DNA of 64,000 nucleotides, from the NCBI GenBank assembly GCA_037576195.1, contig CM075104.1, positions 1,928,775-1,992,774 on the forward strand, read 5' to 3'. This DNA is from Phytoseiulus persimilis. Its lineage: Eukaryota > Arthropoda > Arachnida > Mesostigmata > Phytoseiidae. Under the pieces are notes generated by a model, which ran no database searches, was not told the DNA's origin, and saw only the letters and a list, made by a program, of their open reading frames with translations. The position numbers and the translations under genes are program-made. Positions 8,001-61,945 of this stretch are shown here, one piece after another (the stretch's first letter is position 1; every line of letters starts with the position of its first letter).

Positions 8001-10457
8001 GTCACGAGGCTCACGTCAGAATACGAGTCGTACCGTTGCCCTCATTTCGATCCGTAGAGTTCGACCCCCTATCATAAGTCATTACCAATGTCACATGCTA
8101 CAGCTCCTCGAGTCAGGAATGCTAGAATCGGGGCTCAACACCATGACTGGGATGAGTCGACGTCAAGTGTTCCTCGTGAACTCGATCAGAATGTTCCTCT
8201 CCTGGTGATAATTTTGGTCTGGCCTAAGTTTTCCCGGGCCTGAATATGGAACGAACCCTGGGGAGTCGCGATGAGAGGAAACGGAATCGAGATTCGATTC
8301 TGCGGTCGCGGGAAGTTCGCTTGCTGTAAGCCGGTTCAGGCAACGCAGCTGATCCGGGGGCTGACGACCGGGCTCTTGGATTTTGCTTCCAAGAACGCAT
8401 CGCTGCGAAGGTAATCGGGAAGGGATGATGACATAATTATCCTTCTCTTCACGGAAGACGACCAGGTGGTTTCCGACCGAGATGCATATCGGAGCCGCCA
8501 AGCCACGCTGATCTGGGTGACCGGAAAGGAGTCATGATGTAGCATATTTCTTCAGTCGAAGAACTCGGCGTAGTCTCCATGCTGACGGGGAAGATTGGTT
8601 CTCCTAGTTCGTAGAGGTCAGTGGCGTAGTCAGGGAAAAAGCTGAGCAGGATTTCAGTCTCTCCAGAATGCGTGGAAGGTTGATGGATGAAGGCAATTTT
8701 GGGCCCGCTCTCAAGAGAGATCCTGGCTACGCCACTGACAGTGGCGGCCGAGAGTTTTATTCACGTCGAAGGCTATTCTCCTTGTTTATTTTCTTTCGTT
8801 TCTCGGCGAATCGTTTTGTCCTCTCCACGCGCCACAACCTTTGCCGCTTTTCAGTGAATCATCGATGCAATCGCCGAGCCAAAACATCCAACAACGAGAA
8901 GCTACATCCCAGTTCAATCCGATAGGAAAACATTGAGATCCTTCAGCACCGCTTCGATGAGTTTTATATCAGTTGCCCGCTGTCAAATCTCACAGCTGGT
9001 TCCATCTTGTACCGAAGAAGCAATTTTGTGGGAGTATCGAAAAGACGATGAGCGTCTATCGATGTGAGATATCTCAAGCACCGTCAGTCAATCATTGAAA
9101 TCGAGCTTGTGGATGAACGATATGCGGAAGAATCGCCTGTTTAGAGTCGTTATCGCTTCTAACGACTTTAGTCTTAATGGGCTGTCATGTCAATATCCGC
9201 TCAAGTACAGATCGTCCAAAATCGATTCCTCAACGACGCAGAAAATGGGACGAGAACATCAGCAGTCTCGAATGTGGAAAAACATACTGCTCCGAGCTTG
9301 TGAGTATTCTGATTTCACACGATTCAGCCGTTCGTTCAACCTCAGAAACTTGGAAGTAATGTGGTTGATTGATGACTGTTCGTCACGAAGAAGGAAAAAA
9401 CGTCAAGTCTCCTTATTCACCATTTCCATCAAATGAAGATTGTGGCGACATGAAGGGAGTGAGATGAGGAGTAGGCGTCTATACGCCCAGGAAAATCAAC
9501 GCATCATCCCACTTTAGAGCCGTAGATTGAGTTATTTAGTCTACAAAATATGTCCACTTCACTGGACAACGAACGAGCTGCCAGCTTGTTACAGCCCTTG
9601 CCTAGCTCCTGTTGTGTCAGTAACCCTCCTCGGCTGTACACTGGCACCCTATACCAGATTTTGAGCAGAATACTGTTTTGACTCTCTCCCGCCGCTCCTT
9701 GGCCGCGTCGCAGGAGCGGCCAGCGGAGCATCTCCGAACATTTTCCAGACCGAGTCAGTTGGAGGGTTCATATTCGGGGTTTCGCTGCTCGAATAAACGA
9801 GCTCCGTTCCAGGGGCCTTCACGGCTGACAAATTCGACTCCGATGGATGCGGTGCTGAGACATTTTCATCCGCCGGGACCGGCACAACACTTTATCAGGA
9901 ACCTTCGGGTTGGAAACGATCCGATGGAATGAGCGTTCCGATGATCTTTCGGGCCCGCGTCGTGTTGTTACCGAAACATTTCTCGGTGATAGTCGCCGGC
10001 AAATATCTGTCTGCTAGCTGACGTCATTGTTGACTCGTTTCGTAGACTTCCATCGCACAGGGAGCTCGCACTTCTCTAAGCGCTGCCGAGCGTTGCGTCT
10101 GGCAGCTCGCCATGTCTTTGCTCTAACTCGTTTGCCCAAAGTATTCAATCATTGTTCGCCATGATCTGTTGCGGCTGAGGTGTCTATTCTGGGAACGGTG
10201 AACGCGCTCAGCTGAAGGAAGCTGAGCCTCTGTGAGCCGTGCTCGTTTCCTCAGATTGCGCTCGCATGGCTCCGAAATATTATTCTTCACTTAACGTGCT
10301 AGAAAATTAGAAGCAATGGATCATCGTGTGATAGACAGGCAGCCGGAAGTGAACGGAGCAACTCGAGAATGGACGCGAGTGGCGAGCGGCGGTCTTCAGG
10401 AGCGCCATATGCCTCTCGCATCGTTGATCTCAACGAAATCTACCTCCGAAGATAACA
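8001..10457. other. No gene recognised; one small hAT-like element inside
   Basis: Apart from the small inverted-repeat element at 8,619-8,737, I recognise nothing here. Short open frames on both strands show no family motif and no convincing splice-linked exons. Confidence 0.4.
8619..8737. mobile_element. Miniature inverted-repeat element, hAT-like ends
   Basis: The segment begins CAGTGGCGTAGTCAGG and ends CCTGGCTACGCCACTG, so its ends are inverted repeats of about 16 bp with one mismatch. CAGTGGCGTAGC-type termini are common in hAT elements of animals. A clean 8-bp target duplication is not visible. At 119 bp it encodes nothing. A related terminus is seen at 59,500-59,515. Confidence 0.65.
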
Positions 10458-10927
10458 CCCGACAAAAAAAGAATTCGCGTAACAGAGAAGCTGAAACCTA
10501 GTTTGGAGTAAGTCGAGGTCGTAGATTCGGAATTTCTAAACCGTTTCCTCGGATTCGCTCTAGTTTTCCTGTTATTCTAATTTTTCGGATTTGCGTGATT
10601 TTTTTTTCTGTTGGATTTTTTTATCTCTGCCAGGGAGTGAGCCAGACTCATGAACATTTCGGAGCATGTAGACATATCGCAGAACTATCCCTGGTTGGAA
10701 GTTTCGTGCGATTTGGAGCCACGGTCTCTGAGCTAGGAGAGATCGAACGTCAATTTTCGTCGGAGAACACCGAAAAGTTTCCTCTTCTTCAGCCGATGAC
10801 TAAAAAAGTATCGTTCCCACAACCAGCTTCCGTTGAGCTTTTTGATAGCAATTCCGTTTACGAACATTTTGAGACAAAGTTGATAGTGATCGGATAATCC
10901 ATTCAGTTTTCATCCGCAAAAAACTGT
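10458..10927. repeat. Left long terminal inverted repeat
   Basis: The arm pairs with the right arm at 11,915-12,289. Matching landmarks include GAGCCACGGTC at about 10,718, matched in reverse complement at 12,113-12,123; TTTTGAGACAAA at 10,868, matched by TTTGTCTCAAAA near 11,961; and the ATCTCTGC run at 10,623 against 12,208. Any open frame here on the + strand is repeat sequence rather than a gene. On the minus strand an IKKLNG-containing frame is open both here and in the second copy. Confidence 0.85.
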
Positions 10928-10951
10928 CCACAAGGAAATCTCCTCGAGCAC

Positions 10952-11908
10952 ATGGGTCTGCCACGATACGACGCCAGCGAGTGGCGCCTCTTTCTCGACA
11001 GTTCGAAGAGAACCTTGAAGTGCGTCCTCCTGCACAACGGCAACCAGTACGCTTCGCCTCCGCTCGGTCATTCCACTAGACTACGTGAGGACTACGATGC
11101 CATCGCGTTTTCGTTGGAGAAGATCAAATACGAGGAGCTCCAGTTTTTGTTTACTTGAAGATGGTTTCGATTCTTTTGGGCCAACAAGCCGGTTACACCC
11201 AATTCCCGTGCTTCTTGTGTCTCTGGGACAGCCGAGCGGATGACGAACTTTGGATACGAACGAGCTGGCCGTCAAGGGGATCTCTGAGACCCAGGCAGCC
11301 CAACGTGCTCAGAGACGCTTTGGTTCCGACGGAGGAAATCATTCTCCCACCGCTGCATATCAAATTGGGTGTGATGAAACAGTTCGTCAAAGCATTGGAC
11401 AAACACGGTTCAGGTTTAAACTACATCGTGCGCAAGCTACCCGCTGTGAGCATTCAGAAGCTTCACGCGGGGGCTCTAGATGGACCTCTAATGCGAAAGC
11501 TCATCGACGACCCTGTTCTCATTGACTCAATGAACCATCGAGAAGCCAATGCTTGGCGGTCATTTGTTGTGGTCGTTCAAAATTTCATTGGGAACACGGG
11601 AGCTGAAAACTACAACTCGTCAAGAGCACGCTCGTGAGCTTTCGAGTCCAGGGTGTCGGATGAGCATCAAGATGCACTATCGTCACAGCCATCTCGGACG
11701 CTTCCCTTAAAATTTGGGTGCTGTTAGTGATGAACAAGGAGAAAGGTTCCATCAAGACATAGCGACGATGGAAGAGAGGTACCAGGGAAGATGGGACGTA
11801 CACATGATGTCCGACTGCTGTTGGACCCTTATACGGGATGACCCGGAAAGGCCCCACTCAAGGCAGTTCCTCACGAGACGTTTTGTTGGTTCCGACGAGT
11901 TTCATTAA
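10952..11908 (+). pseudogene. Orphan repeat-protein fragment inside long-TIR element
   Basis: Three pieces on the + strand join into one broken protein. The first (10,952-11,158) has FLDSSKRTLKCVLLHNGN; the second (11,155-11,634) has KMVSILLGQQAGYTQFPCFL, CLWDSRAD and LPPLHIKLGVMKQFVKAL; the third (about 11,718-11,908) has AVSDEQGERFHQD and EERYQGRWDVHMM. These are hallmarks of a large uncharacterised protein family that I recall as highly repeated in arthropod and Hydra genomes. A stop and frameshift lie at 11,158, and another break lies between 11,637 and 11,700. Only the C-terminal half of the usual protein is present. The activity of the family is not known to me. Confidence 0.8.
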
Positions 11909-11914
11909 CGTTCG

Positions 11915-12289
11915 TTTTTTCCACATCAAAACTGAACGGCTGGTCGTAAAACGCTCAAATTTGTCTCAAAATGTTCGCGACTGAATTCTCTATCAGAAAG
12001 CTCTGCGGAAGTTGGCTGAGGGGACTATAGTTTTTACGTTTTCGGCAGGAGAAGGGGCCACTTTTCGGTGCTCACCGACGGAATTCGACTTTTGATCTCT
12101 TCTAGCTAACTGACCGTGGCTCCGAAAGGCACGAAATTTTCACCGGGGGTAGTTCTCTTACTGGTCAACATGCTCCCAATTTTTCGCAGATCTGGCTTGC
12201 TTGGGAGCAGAGATAAAAAATCAGGAATCTATGACCTCGGTTCACCCCATACTAGGTGTCAGCTTCCTTGTTACGTTTTTACTGTCGGG
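11915..12289. repeat. Right long terminal inverted repeat
   Basis: Reverse complement of the left arm. The outermost 65 bp align well (TGTCGGG end, then a CTAGGTGTCAGCTTC run against the left-arm counterpart at 10,487-10,502). Relative to the left arm, and to the second copy of the element, about 80-90 bp near 12,223 are missing. The final bases overlap the stop codon of the neighbouring minus-strand LINE C frame. Confidence 0.85.
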
Positions 12290-12393
12290 CAATCTCATTG
12301 TTAACAACGCTCCCAACTCTAGATCTGGCAGATCGAACTTGGTTTTTGTCGCAGTCCTCCACGATTTTTTCCGTTTCTCTTACTTCTGTCGAC

Positions 12394-13902
12394 TTATTTG
12401 CTCCCTGGTGAAGTCCGAGACGGTACAGTAGTCCATCTTCGGTAAAATTGATGTCGTCGTATTCGAATATAACGTGTTCTGTCGTTTTCTCGTATTCTCC
12501 ACACCTGGGACGGCTTTTGACTAATCCAGAGTTCATCTTGTGGGCTCCAGTTGGCAGCTTGTTCGCTCGAGCCAGAGCTAGTGGGGCGCTGCCTCCTGTT
12601 GTCGTAGAGGTAGCTATTCACACCACGGGTGGTTTTCCCCGTGCAGCATGCTTGTAGACTAGACTTCCACCCTGATATCTTCGCAATGGTATTTCGCTCT
12701 AAGGCGCTCCGTTTCCTGGTACAGTTTGGTCTTCTTGTTTGTAAGCTCCACCATTCTCAGGATGCTCTTTGGCCACCTGAGATTTGGCATTCCTCTATCC
12801 CTCTCTAAGTATCTAAGGTCGCTCTGAGCGCTTCTTGCTTCGAAGGACGACGATCTAAGCCTTCCTTGGACAAACTCGATGGGAACTCTGGAACATGGGA
12901 GTGCCCACTTCTCCGCTTTCCGTTAGGATTTTTCGAGTTTCTCTGTCAGTGATGCGCTAGTCACTAGTACTGCGTTTGCGTGGCTCAACTTCGATACCGC
13001 TATAGATTTCCCTTGCACTCTAGAGACTCGAATCTACAGGTACCCCATAGCGACGATGCGTGCATCTGGCGTAGGGCGGAGATCGCTGTTCTCCCCCAGA
13101 TTTCTTCCTGATCGTTCAGGTAGTTCCCAGAGTCCGAAAGCGTGATGCCCAAGTATTTGTAATTTCCAGCTACCGGTACTTCATTTCCTTGTATCCTCAG
13201 TTCCCTCTTGGGCCCTAGGTCATGGGCTGAGTATACCACCACCGCGCTTTTCGTGGGGTTGAACGTCAGCTCATTCTGGTCTCCATATTTCGTCGTGGCT
13301 TCCAGGAGTTTTCTCATTCCTAGGTAGTTCCTGGCCATGAGTACAATATCGTCCGCGAACAGATGAACGGATATACGGAGAAAGTTTTTCATCCTTGTAT
13401 CCCAGGTCCATTCGTCTGTCTTGACTCTGAACATCACTCCTTGTTCTCGTAGTTCGGTCTAGAGGTCCCAGATATACAGCATGAGAAGGAGACATGACAG
13501 AGGGCACCCTCGACGGAGCCCCTGGTTGATCTCAATCCACCTCGAAATCCGTTCCGGATCTCTCCCAGTCTCTCATTGTTTTATATCCAGGTCTGCTTCG
13601 TTCTTCTCGAGTATTTCGGTGGAGACGCGCTGTAGCAAGGCTGAGATGGTAATTTGCCGACCGGTGGAGAGGTCGCTCGGTCTTGAGTTTGTATTCTCTA
13701 ACATCACGACCTTACCGTTTCTCCATTCCGCTGGTATGTCCTCTTCCCCCTTCGGTATGCGGTTGAAGAGATCTGCTATGTATCCCGTTCCAACGTCAGT
13801 GAGTCCCTTCAGGATCTTCGCTGGAATTCGATCTAGGCCGGTGCTAGTGTGGGTGTGCGTCTGGGTCAGAATCCGATTGATTTTGTCGATGGTCATCTCC
13901 AA
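12394..13902 (-). pseudogene. LINE C reverse transcriptase to C-terminus
   Basis: The minus strand from 13,902 shows GLDRIPAKILKGLT and IPAEWRNGKVVML (RT fingers), then ISALLQRVSTEILEK. Near 13,360-13,340 the catalytic box reads LFADDIVLMAR, followed by ELTFNPTKSAVVVYS and NYKYLGITLSDSGNY. After frame changes, KLSHANAVLVTSAS and LRYLERDRGMPNLRWP follow near 13,000-12,770, and RCGEYEKTTEHVIFEY near 12,500 is the C-terminal Cys-His finger, with its last cysteine changed. Stops and frameshifts make it inactive. Confidence 0.85.
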
Positions 13903-33155: not shown

Positions 33156-36100
33156 ATGGCCGAAACGACAATCAAGCTCAGCAGGGGCGATGGAACGCCG
33201 TGGGGATTCCGTCTTGGAGGTGGGAAGGACTTCGGTTACCCTGTCTGCATTCAACGGGTGAGTGGATTGAGCAGTGGGCGTCGCTCCGATTCTGTGTCCG
33301 GCTTCTCGAGGATGGGGAGGCTTGAGGGGAGGGATCGCTCCTCAGAGTCGGGATGAGAGAGGCGTTTTCTCACTCTTCTGTCCTCCAGACTGTTCCTGCA
33401 AGTGGGCGACGCTGACAACTCTGTCCGGCTGGCACATGGGAGCTCGTTACCGAGTGTCGTCTTTTCAATCTCGGGATATCTGCTCTTGAATCTCCCAGTG
33501 AATAAGCGCTCAAAGTTTACTTTGGGCGCTTGATGATTACACCTATGACCAAGAGTAGCGAGATTCAAGCTGAGTTTCGCTGTAGCAGGCCAGGCCATCG
33601 CTCTACCGCCTATGATGATGGCAATGCTGCTGCTGCCCGCTGGCAGGGTCTCGCCAGCCGTTCGGAATGTAAATAGAACGAGAAATCGCACTCGAATTAA
33701 AACGCTCGTTCAACAGCTTTCTCAGCGGAAAAGTGCGTTAAGCACCCACACCCGATAAGATTTGGTCAGTCTTCCTTTCTACTCTCCGCGATGTGTTTCG
33801 GTTGCAAAATGGAACGAGTGGCCTTGAAGCCGGCAGCGCACGTATGAGGAAAATTCTCCCACGGCTCTCCCCCATCCGCTGCTCCATCTCGAGCCTCGCG
33901 GATCAGCTCTCAGGTGTGCTCCATATGTCTAGTTCTGTTACGTGGTTGTTGGCAATCGCGATTCGATATCTGTCGGACTGCAGTGGAAATGAAATAGAGC
34001 TTCTCAACAAGTTCAAGAGAGAACGGATCGAAATGAGACCATCTCACGAAATCTCATCGACCCTTCGTTCGCGGAGAAGGCGATTGTCTCCAAGCAAAGT
34101 GAGCTGATTCCTGTCAGAGCAATCGAGTTCGAGTTTCGTTCCCGCCCTTCTGGGTGGTCGTCTACCCAAACAGAGCAGAAAATGTTCCCAGTGAGAGAAA
34201 TCGGAGTTCAAAGGTGCCGAGATCTGGAGCAGCGAGACGCAATCGTCAGGGGGACAGTGGCGGTGCGGAGGATGAAAAGCAGCAAACAGTGAAGAGCTTT
34301 GCGTTGTCAAGTTGTTCTCCCAATCCGTATGTGGCCATCATGCGGTTCTCGTCTGTCATCGTCATCGGACACCACTCATCTTCCGATCATTCACCAACAT
34401 CTTGTTTATTCCGTCTGGGACCAGTTGACGTCTCGGACCTACCTCTGTCGAATTAAGTGTAAATGATTACTGACAATGCGTATAGCGGAGATCGTTTCCC
34501 TCGATAAGGATTGTCGCACCCTGCTGCGGATCATGTGCAACGCTTTGGGAGCAAATGAGCAACACTGCATAGCCCTCAACGACGATCGTTCATGAGCGCG
34601 TACGATCCAATACCATTGTAGTTCTCAACTGCGCTACGATATTCACCATTCCTTGTTTGTGGTGGAATCGTCCGAGATCGCTGTGGAATCGGACCGTGGA
34701 GCAACTGCGGACGAAGAGGACGCGATCCCTCGACTTTTTTCATCCACTTATCTCGGCTGAGTCGGTTCGAAAATGTCACGCTGCCTTTTGCACACGCACT
34801 TAAATTAGGTTCCACAACGCGAAGGACATGACCGTGAGACCGACAGTTTTTTCTCGCTGTCGAACATTTGAGTTGAGATTTGACTATAATTCCTTCGGCA
34901 TTGAGAACCTCCGCGTCTCTAGGCGAAACGTTCCAGGAAATAGTTCCAGGACGACCCCCTTGATCTGCTTACCCAATTCGAGGAGCCCGTCTTCTTGCTT
35001 TGTGTTCTCTCCTCTCGAGCATTCGCTCGGTCTTTCCCGGGCCCGATCGGGGTTTGTTGAGCAATGATCCGAAAACGTTCCTCATTGTCGTATCTTAATT
35101 CCTAGCGACAGCTCTCGATCAGGGACGATAACGACTCTCACTATTCCCTCTGGTTTTGTTCTTCGCGGCTATGGAGTCACACTCGACTTCTTCTCGAACG
35201 TTCTCGCGAGAATTATCTTCATTCTCTGATCGCCGCAACTAGTGGAAAACGTGAGCGATTGGGCTCTCAGTGCTCGACGAAGAATCATCCTATGGAAGTC
35301 TGCCCTCTTTTCGTTCTCGCGAATCCACGACCGAATTCGCCGTTATTGTCCGAAAGCGTTGGTGGAGTGTATTACTCAAAATCCCGTATGGAGAAGGGTA
35401 ATGGTCAGATTGGTCCCATAATCAGCCCTCCAGACCTGGAAAGTGATGGTCGGATCGGTCCCGGAATCACCCCTCCAGACTTGGAAAGTAATGGTCAGAT
35501 AGGTCCCGGAATCACCCCTTCAGGTTTGGATCGTCTCGAATTCTCCAGATGGCCACAGGTCACTCTCCCTGCTGCGAAAATTCGCCTCGGAAACACCTGA
35601 CGCGGTCGCCATATGAATTTCGAGATGGAGTCAGGGCGGAACACCATCGTCGAGGGCTTCGGTCTATCACGGCGGAGTCACAGTTTCCGCTCTGATCTAA
35701 TGGATGTTCCGCTCGGTTCTAGTGTTACATCTTGAAGATTTCACAAGAAATCCTGTTATCGGAATGACTTATTTCGAAATCGCGCTCCATGATTGGAAAT
35801 CGTCAAAGGCATCACTCGCGCCGACTTCGAATCTTGTTCCTCTTGCTCGGAATCTAAATGATTTTGCAACAGCTTCTATCCTTCGATGTCAGACCACTTC
35901 GGCGATGCTCTTGAAAGAGGCTTACAAGCTTATTCAACATGTTTTCAACGCGGAACTCCGATCACTCCCAGCTTGGAACTCGCCTTCATGGTTCTCCTCT
36001 GCTGCTAGACATCCGCCGTCACAGAAGGGTCTCTGTGTATTGAACATTTCAATCAGGCTTTTGGTAATATCCTGTTGGACTCGGTGAGGCTTCAGGAGGC

Positions 36101-60405: not shown

Positions 60406-60689
60406 CAATTTGAATGATCAAAAGTCAATTTCTGTCGGAGAACATCGAAAAGTTTCCTCTTATTTAGCCGACGACCAGAAAACAATAACTCCCACAACCC
60501 ATTACCATTGAGCTTTTTGATGGGGACTGCATTCATGGACATTTTGAGACAAAGTCGAGCGTGATTCAGATCCGTTTATTTTTTATTCTCGAAAACCTGG
60601 AAACAACGAAAATACTCCTCCAACTCATATCACGGCATCACGTGTCCAGCACAGAGGCGCTTTGCTAGCGATGGAAAAATCATTCTCCC

Positions 60690-61180
60690 ACCGCTGCATA
60701 TCAAATTGAGTCTGATGAAGCAGTTCGTCAAAGCATTGGGCAAACACGGTTCATGTTTCAAGTTTCAACGACATCGTGCGCACGCGGCTCGCTGTGAGCA
60801 TCCAGAAGCTTCAGACGGGGGTTTTAGATGGACCTTAAATCCGGAAGCTCCTCGACGAGCCTGTTCTCATTGACTCAAAGAGACCATCGAGAAGCCGATG
60901 CTTGATGGTCATTTGTTCTGGTCGTTCAAAATTCCTTTGGAAACACGAGAGCTTAAAACTAGGTTCAACTCGTTGATAACATGCTCGTGAGCGTTCGAGT
61001 ACTAGGGTGTCGGATTAGCATAAAGATGCACTATATGCGCAGCCATCTCGGATGCTCCCCTGAAAATTTGATTGCTCCGAGTGATGAGAAAGGAGAAAGG
61101 TTCCATCAAGACATGGCGACCACGGGAGCGAGGTACCATGGAAGATGGGACGTGCACATAATGGCCGACCACTGTTGAAC
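60690..61180 (+). pseudogene. Orphan repeat-protein remnant, second copy
   Basis: The + strand shows LPPLHIKLSLMKQFVKALGK near 60,698, then after several frame breaks ISIKMHYMRSHLG (about 61,020) and SDEKGERFHQDMATTGARYH with GRWDVHIMADHC ending before a TGA at 61,178. It parallels the fragment at 10,952-11,908 but lacks the FLDSSKR start, which falls in a deletion near 60,660. More decayed than the first copy. Confidence 0.75.
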
Positions 61181-61721
61181 TCTGATACGGGATGACCCCG
61201 ATGGGCTCACTCGAGTCAGTCCCTCACGAGACGTCTTGTTGGTTCCGATGAGTCTCATTGACTTTGGCTTTTTTTCGCATAAAAACTGAATGCTTCGTCG
61301 TATCACGCTCCTCTTTGTCTTAAAATGTTAGCGATTGGATTTTTCATCAGAGAGCTCAACGGTTGTCGGCTGTGGGGCCATGGTTTTTCCGTTCTCGGCT
61401 GAAGAAGGGCGACTTTCAGGTGCTCGACGACGGAATCCGACTTTTGAACTCTTCTAGCTCAGAGACCGTGGCTCCGAATGGCACGGAATTTTCACAAAAG
61501 ATTGTCCATTATGGGTATACATGCTCCCAAATTTTCGCTCGCGCGAGGTCTGGCTCGCGCAGGAGCAAAGATGAAATTCAACATGAAAGAAAATCAGGAA
61601 AATACGAAAAATCGAGATCACTCAAAAACTAAAGCGAATCCGGGGGAACGGTTGACCGATTCGGAGCCTACGACTTCGATTCACCGCAACCTAGGTGTCA
61701 GCTTCCTTGTCACGTTTTAAT

Positions 61722-61945
61722 GTAGGCTTACATTTTACAGGCGAGGGTGCGCTTGTTGTGCCGGAAAGTGGCCGCAACGAAACTGGAACCACCCAGAGTT
61801 GTGCTTTGCGGCACTGTCGACTAGCACTTATCACTCGCTCTGCCGTCAGCGGCTTGCTTCCAATTTACTGGTCGTTGATCACATCGATGTGGTACGTAAG
61901 CCTACGGAACCACTAGTTCAGCAGCCGAACTTGGCCCCGTTTTCT
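61722..61945. other. Insertion interrupting the right arm of the second element copy
   Basis: Compared with the first copy, which reads ACGTTTTTACTGTCGGG, this copy reads ACGTTTTA, then about 224 bp of unrelated sequence, then TTCTGTCGGG. No inverted ends or target duplication are obvious, and the inserted sequence is not recognised. Confidence 0.5.

Follow-up and report, generated by a model that had tools for sequence, protein, structure and literature searches.

Chapaev3 transposons are described in PMC4079192 as producing a 3-bp TWA target duplication that always has A on its 5′ side and T on its 3′ side, ending in CAC and GTG, giving rise by internal deletion to miniature inverted-repeat transposable elements, and encoding a transposase with C(2)C, LH and H(4)H motifs, which in Garfield_BM is 556 amino acids (aa) long. 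On the basis of sequence, Chapaev and Chapaev3 have been grouped with Transib and RAG1 into a single superfamily, and Chapaev3 carries an N-terminal Chapa zinc finger (PMC4411706). In the present study, we analysed 64,000 nucleotides of contig CM075104.1 of Phytoseiulus persimilis (hereafter the window), in which a repeat with long inverted arms encloses the remains of an orphan protein. The repeat is very probably a dead, internally deleted cut-and-paste DNA transposon of the Chapaev3 group, with the orphan protein as its transposase, and the predicted structure suggests that this transposase is distantly related to RAG1, a recombinase of the human immune system. We take Chapaev3 to be the group labelled 'CMC-Chapaev-3' by RepeatMasker.

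The internally deleted and decayed window copy occupies 10456..12294 on the + strand, with coordinates taken from the sequence and ends from 41 loci of the host genome. Its left arm lies at 10456..10924 (+ strand), as read from the alignment of one half with the other and recovered by the genome arm search, and its right arm at 11914..12294 (− strand); ~80–85 bp of the right arm, near 12222–12224, and the N-terminal coding part are missing and are both present in other copies. The ungapped inverted repeat (10689–10924 and 11914–12149) covers 236 nt at 75% identity, and the gapped alignment of the two halves, which extends slightly beyond the arms into the coding part, has 426 columns at 77% identity and a score of 155 versus 23.5 for one shuffle. 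Three transposase remnants follow one another on the + strand, matching residues ~244–316 of a full-length relative (10937..11155, with the first Asp in FLDSSKR), residues ~315–471 in another frame (11143..11613, within a 182-aa open stretch, with Tyr in place of the second Asp in VYLKM and with CFLC and PPLHIKL kept) and residues ~486–565 (11651..11890, with one stop, HYRHSH and DEQGERFHQD). The repeat alignments and protein matches agree with an earlier note on this DNA, which had described a 1.8-kb unit at 10458..12289, with inverted ends around a broken + strand protein. The arms of that description stand, but its ends, CCCGACA/TGTCGGG, sit 5 bp internal to the true family ends CACTG/CAGTG. 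Both termini of the window copy are altered, the left reading CA-CCCGACA after the loss of 3 nt (CTG) from CACTG and the right, TGTCGGGCAATC, carrying CAATC. The target duplication is TAA on the left (10453..10455, in the context G-A-TAA, with A preceding as in the family rule A-TWA) and TCA on the right (12295..12297), one base off TAA and followed by T.

A DNA similarity search of the 181-Mb host genome, which is in 127 contigs, gave 173 matches to the window unit from the 40 scored of 106 candidates. Leaving aside the match of the window copy to itself, the seven best showed 85–91% identity. Forty further loci (L019–L058) were read together with the window copy (L001), and the conserved family ends in these 41 loci were CACTGCCCGACA and TGTCGGGCAGTG. 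Ends with four mismatches or fewer on both sides were scored at 27 of the 41 loci, 14 being dropped for poor ends, although this cut is loose and admits poor ends such as those of L037 and L049. An identical 3-bp duplication was present at 14 of the 27 scored loci, compared to a mean of 5.4 and a maximum of 11 among 1000 rounds of shuffled partners, and duplications of 4 to 10 bp were present at none. The left 3-mers were chiefly TTA (nine loci) and TAA (seven loci), with A before the duplication at 21 loci and T after it at 22. A 3-bp target duplication, TWA within A-TWA-T, thus recurs among the scored loci, where the earlier note had suggested looking for a constant one. Furthermore, within the loci read, empty sites were found for three of the 18 joined copies, whose flanks minus the element and one duplication match uninterrupted sequence: L020 in L054 and L056, L040 in L056 (twice) and L041, and L041 in L058 and L039, the latter two being near-duplicates of each other. 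Transib proper was rejected because a 5-bp duplication occurred at none of the 27 scored loci.

Both arms were found in inverted orientation at 33 of the 41 loci, one arm at eight and neither at none. This count is biased towards arms, because most of the loci were picked for the resemblance of their DNA to that of the window copy. The genome arm search also placed left arms just upstream of the protein matches at C2:31753559, C1:25834922 and C3:18090580, and L060, a more distant protein match, has a left arm and no right arm within the 2,140 bases read. L045/L046 and L049/L050 resemble halves of single elements broken by later insertions. The halves align from base 1 or 2 to ~450–680 at 78–84% identity in 15 of 16 further loci measured, and only partly in L044. 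Different copies are more alike (~85–91% identity) than are the left and right arms within a copy, and divergence of the arms therefore probably preceded the spread of the family.

The earlier note had offered, as an alternative, a MULE- or foldback-like long-arm element that had captured the fragment. Capture from an unrelated host protein would be consistent with the long arms and with the many copies that hold only the C-terminal part of the protein. However, other copies hold N-terminal parts between the same arms, L027 covering 565 of 567 residues and L045/L046 likewise contradicting capture, and the protein itself has a predicted DDE-transposase fold. The target duplication of MULEs is ~9 bp, and the duplication here is 3 bp, none of the 27 scored loci having a 9-bp one. 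Capture is thus extremely improbable, being both unnecessary and at odds with the 3-bp duplication.

The relatives of the orphan protein are ~540–590 aa long and have a conserved cysteine-rich N-terminal domain. At least 2167 protein clusters were matched, with hosts that are, where named, animals except for one bacterial metagenome assembly record, and with database names that are, where given, hypothetical, uncharacterized or unnamed. D264, D318 and E513 are invariant in 67 relatives, C337/C340, H386 and H499 are present in all 67, and H494 in 66. The acidic catalytic residues that the earlier note hoped for may thus be in place, D264, D318 and either E513 or E516 of P0130 presumably forming the DDE triad. 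The predicted structure is closest to the Transib/RAG1 fold, with other HzTransib entries scoring lower against the predicted model (11.3–11.9). Arms, ends, duplication, empty sites, predicted fold and invariant acidic residues together uphold the proposal of the earlier note that a DNA transposon with long terminal inverted repeats has the orphan family as part of its machinery. The element resembles Transib, ProtoRAG and RAG1 in the predicted catalytic fold, but differs from them in its 3-bp rather than 5-bp duplication, and no sequence similarity to them was found. In PMC4411706, canonical Transib is described as having no domain that can be identified outside the core, whereas the transposase here has an N-terminal domain too.

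The PDB sequence search at E ≤ 10 returned only WD repeat and FYVE domain-containing protein 3 (E 0.48) with the full-length profile, and two matches at E 1.7, to a polyketide synthase-related protein, with the N-terminal profile. Among viral contigs scanned with the protein alignment, none of 50 pattern matches was confirmed, and a structure search in viral proteins gave 599 matches at E ≤ 10 and none at E ≤ 0.001. RAG1_imp_bd (PF12560) found nothing in the mite's own genome, and likewise nothing in the control genomes.

CACTA elements have CACTG ends and a 3-bp duplication, so that both features here would also fit a CACTA/EnSpm element proper with a Tnp2-type transposase. However, none of the 22 Pfam families hit at E ≤ 1 by one or more of the 67 relatives was a CACTA transposase family, and the transposase probably differs from that of CACTA/EnSpm, its predicted fold being closest to Transib/RAG1; we know of no CACTA transposase structure. 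CACTA is a neighbour group of Chapaev in CMC, but the A-TWA-T target preference and a 556-aa transposase with C(2)C, LH and H(4)H are described for Chapaev3 (PMC4079192), and we judge CACTA proper to be very unlikely. That no Pfam family scored above cut-off in the nine sequences scanned, that the database names are uninformative and that no literature containing four sequence words from the protein was found could point instead to a new superfamily, with ends and target choice in common with Chapaev3 by descent or chance. This is highly improbable, as the ends, TWA duplication, flanking A and T, protein length and motifs match Chapaev3, and the cysteine-rich N-terminal domain may correspond to its Chapa zinc finger. 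The reading as an undescribed superfamily is thus not supported, the hallmarks open to testing being those described for Chapaev3 (PMC4079192).

Assignment to Chapaev3, as represented in Repbase by families such as Merrow, Garfield and Conan, thus accommodates the TWA duplication between A and T, the CAC...GTG ends, the transposase of about 556 aa with DDE residues, C(2)C, LH and H(4)H, and the internally deleted non-autonomous copies. The arms, at ~450 bp or more, may set the element apart, the comparison with the named families being by description only; no paper on Chapaev with long terminal inverted repeats was found in our literature search. We propose the following scenario, in which we infer the chemistry, the zinc binding and the choice of catalytic residues. 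The transposase would consist of an N-terminal zinc domain followed by a RAG1/Transib-type RNase H core with the DDE triad and an insertion, in which the C(2)C and H(4)H motifs may bind zinc as in RAG1. By analogy with RAG1/Transib, a dimer would bind the inverted ends and cut at CACTG/CAGTG, and the ends would be joined to target DNA with a 3-bp stagger, leaving TWA duplications in A-TWA-T sites. The assignment identifies many database proteins that lack an informative name as Chapaev3 transposases, so that some of the genes counted in many genomes may be remnants of transposons, and a predicted structure now places the family with Transib and RAG1.

The N-terminal domain resembles ZAD (zf-AD, PF07776) of insect zinc-finger transcription factors by weak profile and fold matches. 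The best E values were 3.5e-4 among 48 N-terminal proteins and 0.0024 among 67 full-length ones, and P0248 scored 18.6 bits against a Pfam gathering score of 28 bits. The L027 copy scored 27.9 bits alone and 28.5 bits with its neighbours in frame, and the sole match in the genome search, C2:4860875-4861036 (L027/L059), lay just at this cut-off. In the fold comparison, the four best-scoring solved entries were ZAD, with 61–65 residues aligned at low Z. Unlike ZAD, the transposase has an extra C(2)C knuckle (C96, C99) and a conserved H92 in this domain and no C2H2 zinc-finger array. ZAD might have arisen from a RAG1-type transposase, or the two might have a common origin, a transposon domain having become an animal regulator family, though we rate the chance of this at slightly below even. 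Should ZAD and this domain prove homologous, it would become possible to test where a major insect transcription-factor domain came from. Our literature search found the Chapa domain in PMC4411706 alone and no paper joining ZAD with Chapaev, and no title on the origin of ZAD was among the matches listed for ZAD, domestication, transposon and RAG1.

Thirteen loci (L001, L032, L038–L044, L049, L051, L052 and L058) run continuously through query positions 481–505 and thus lack the N-terminal coding part like the window copy, and another junction, from 481 to 711, is common to L029, L030, L031, L034 and L036. The same deletions having spread repeatedly, deletion derivatives such as the window copy may have been moved by transposase made elsewhere. 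The genome search with the full-length relative gave 86 matches from the 77 scored of 139 candidates, none longer than ~330 residues in one piece. Only L027 covers residues 1–565, with nine stops in one stretch, and the next-best locus covers 447 of 567 residues. The intact long open reading frame sought in the earlier note is absent from the copies read, and only remnants were seen in this genome. A second, more decayed copy of the family lies in the window at 60416..61727 (L048, + strand), with residues ~354–412 and 454–548, stops, a right arm and a loosely read right terminus.

L052 was not one of the 18 joined copies considered for empty sites. Among the matches listed, its joined flanks align across their junction to coding sequence in other copies, and L052 thus sits inside an older copy, which is ~67–71% identical to the others and whose coding remnant it splits. 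Four left arms, together with three matches to residues ~210–287, recur every ~1.82 kb at C1:6297921-6304330, where a tandem array seems to have formed from part of the element. L039 and L058 lie ~14 kb apart on C3 with a common flank and element copy, apparently through local duplication. A 45-bp tandem repeat occurs in the window at 607–1873 (28 copies) and 35398–35530 (three copies); among the matches listed, it was matched by stretches of L032, L037 and L051 and by the flanks of L020, which therefore lies in or beside a 45-bp array. Finally, a 152-aa open stretch on the − strand at 13000–13458 of the window contains HLFADDIVLMARN, which we take to be a reverse-transcriptase motif of a LINE-like element.
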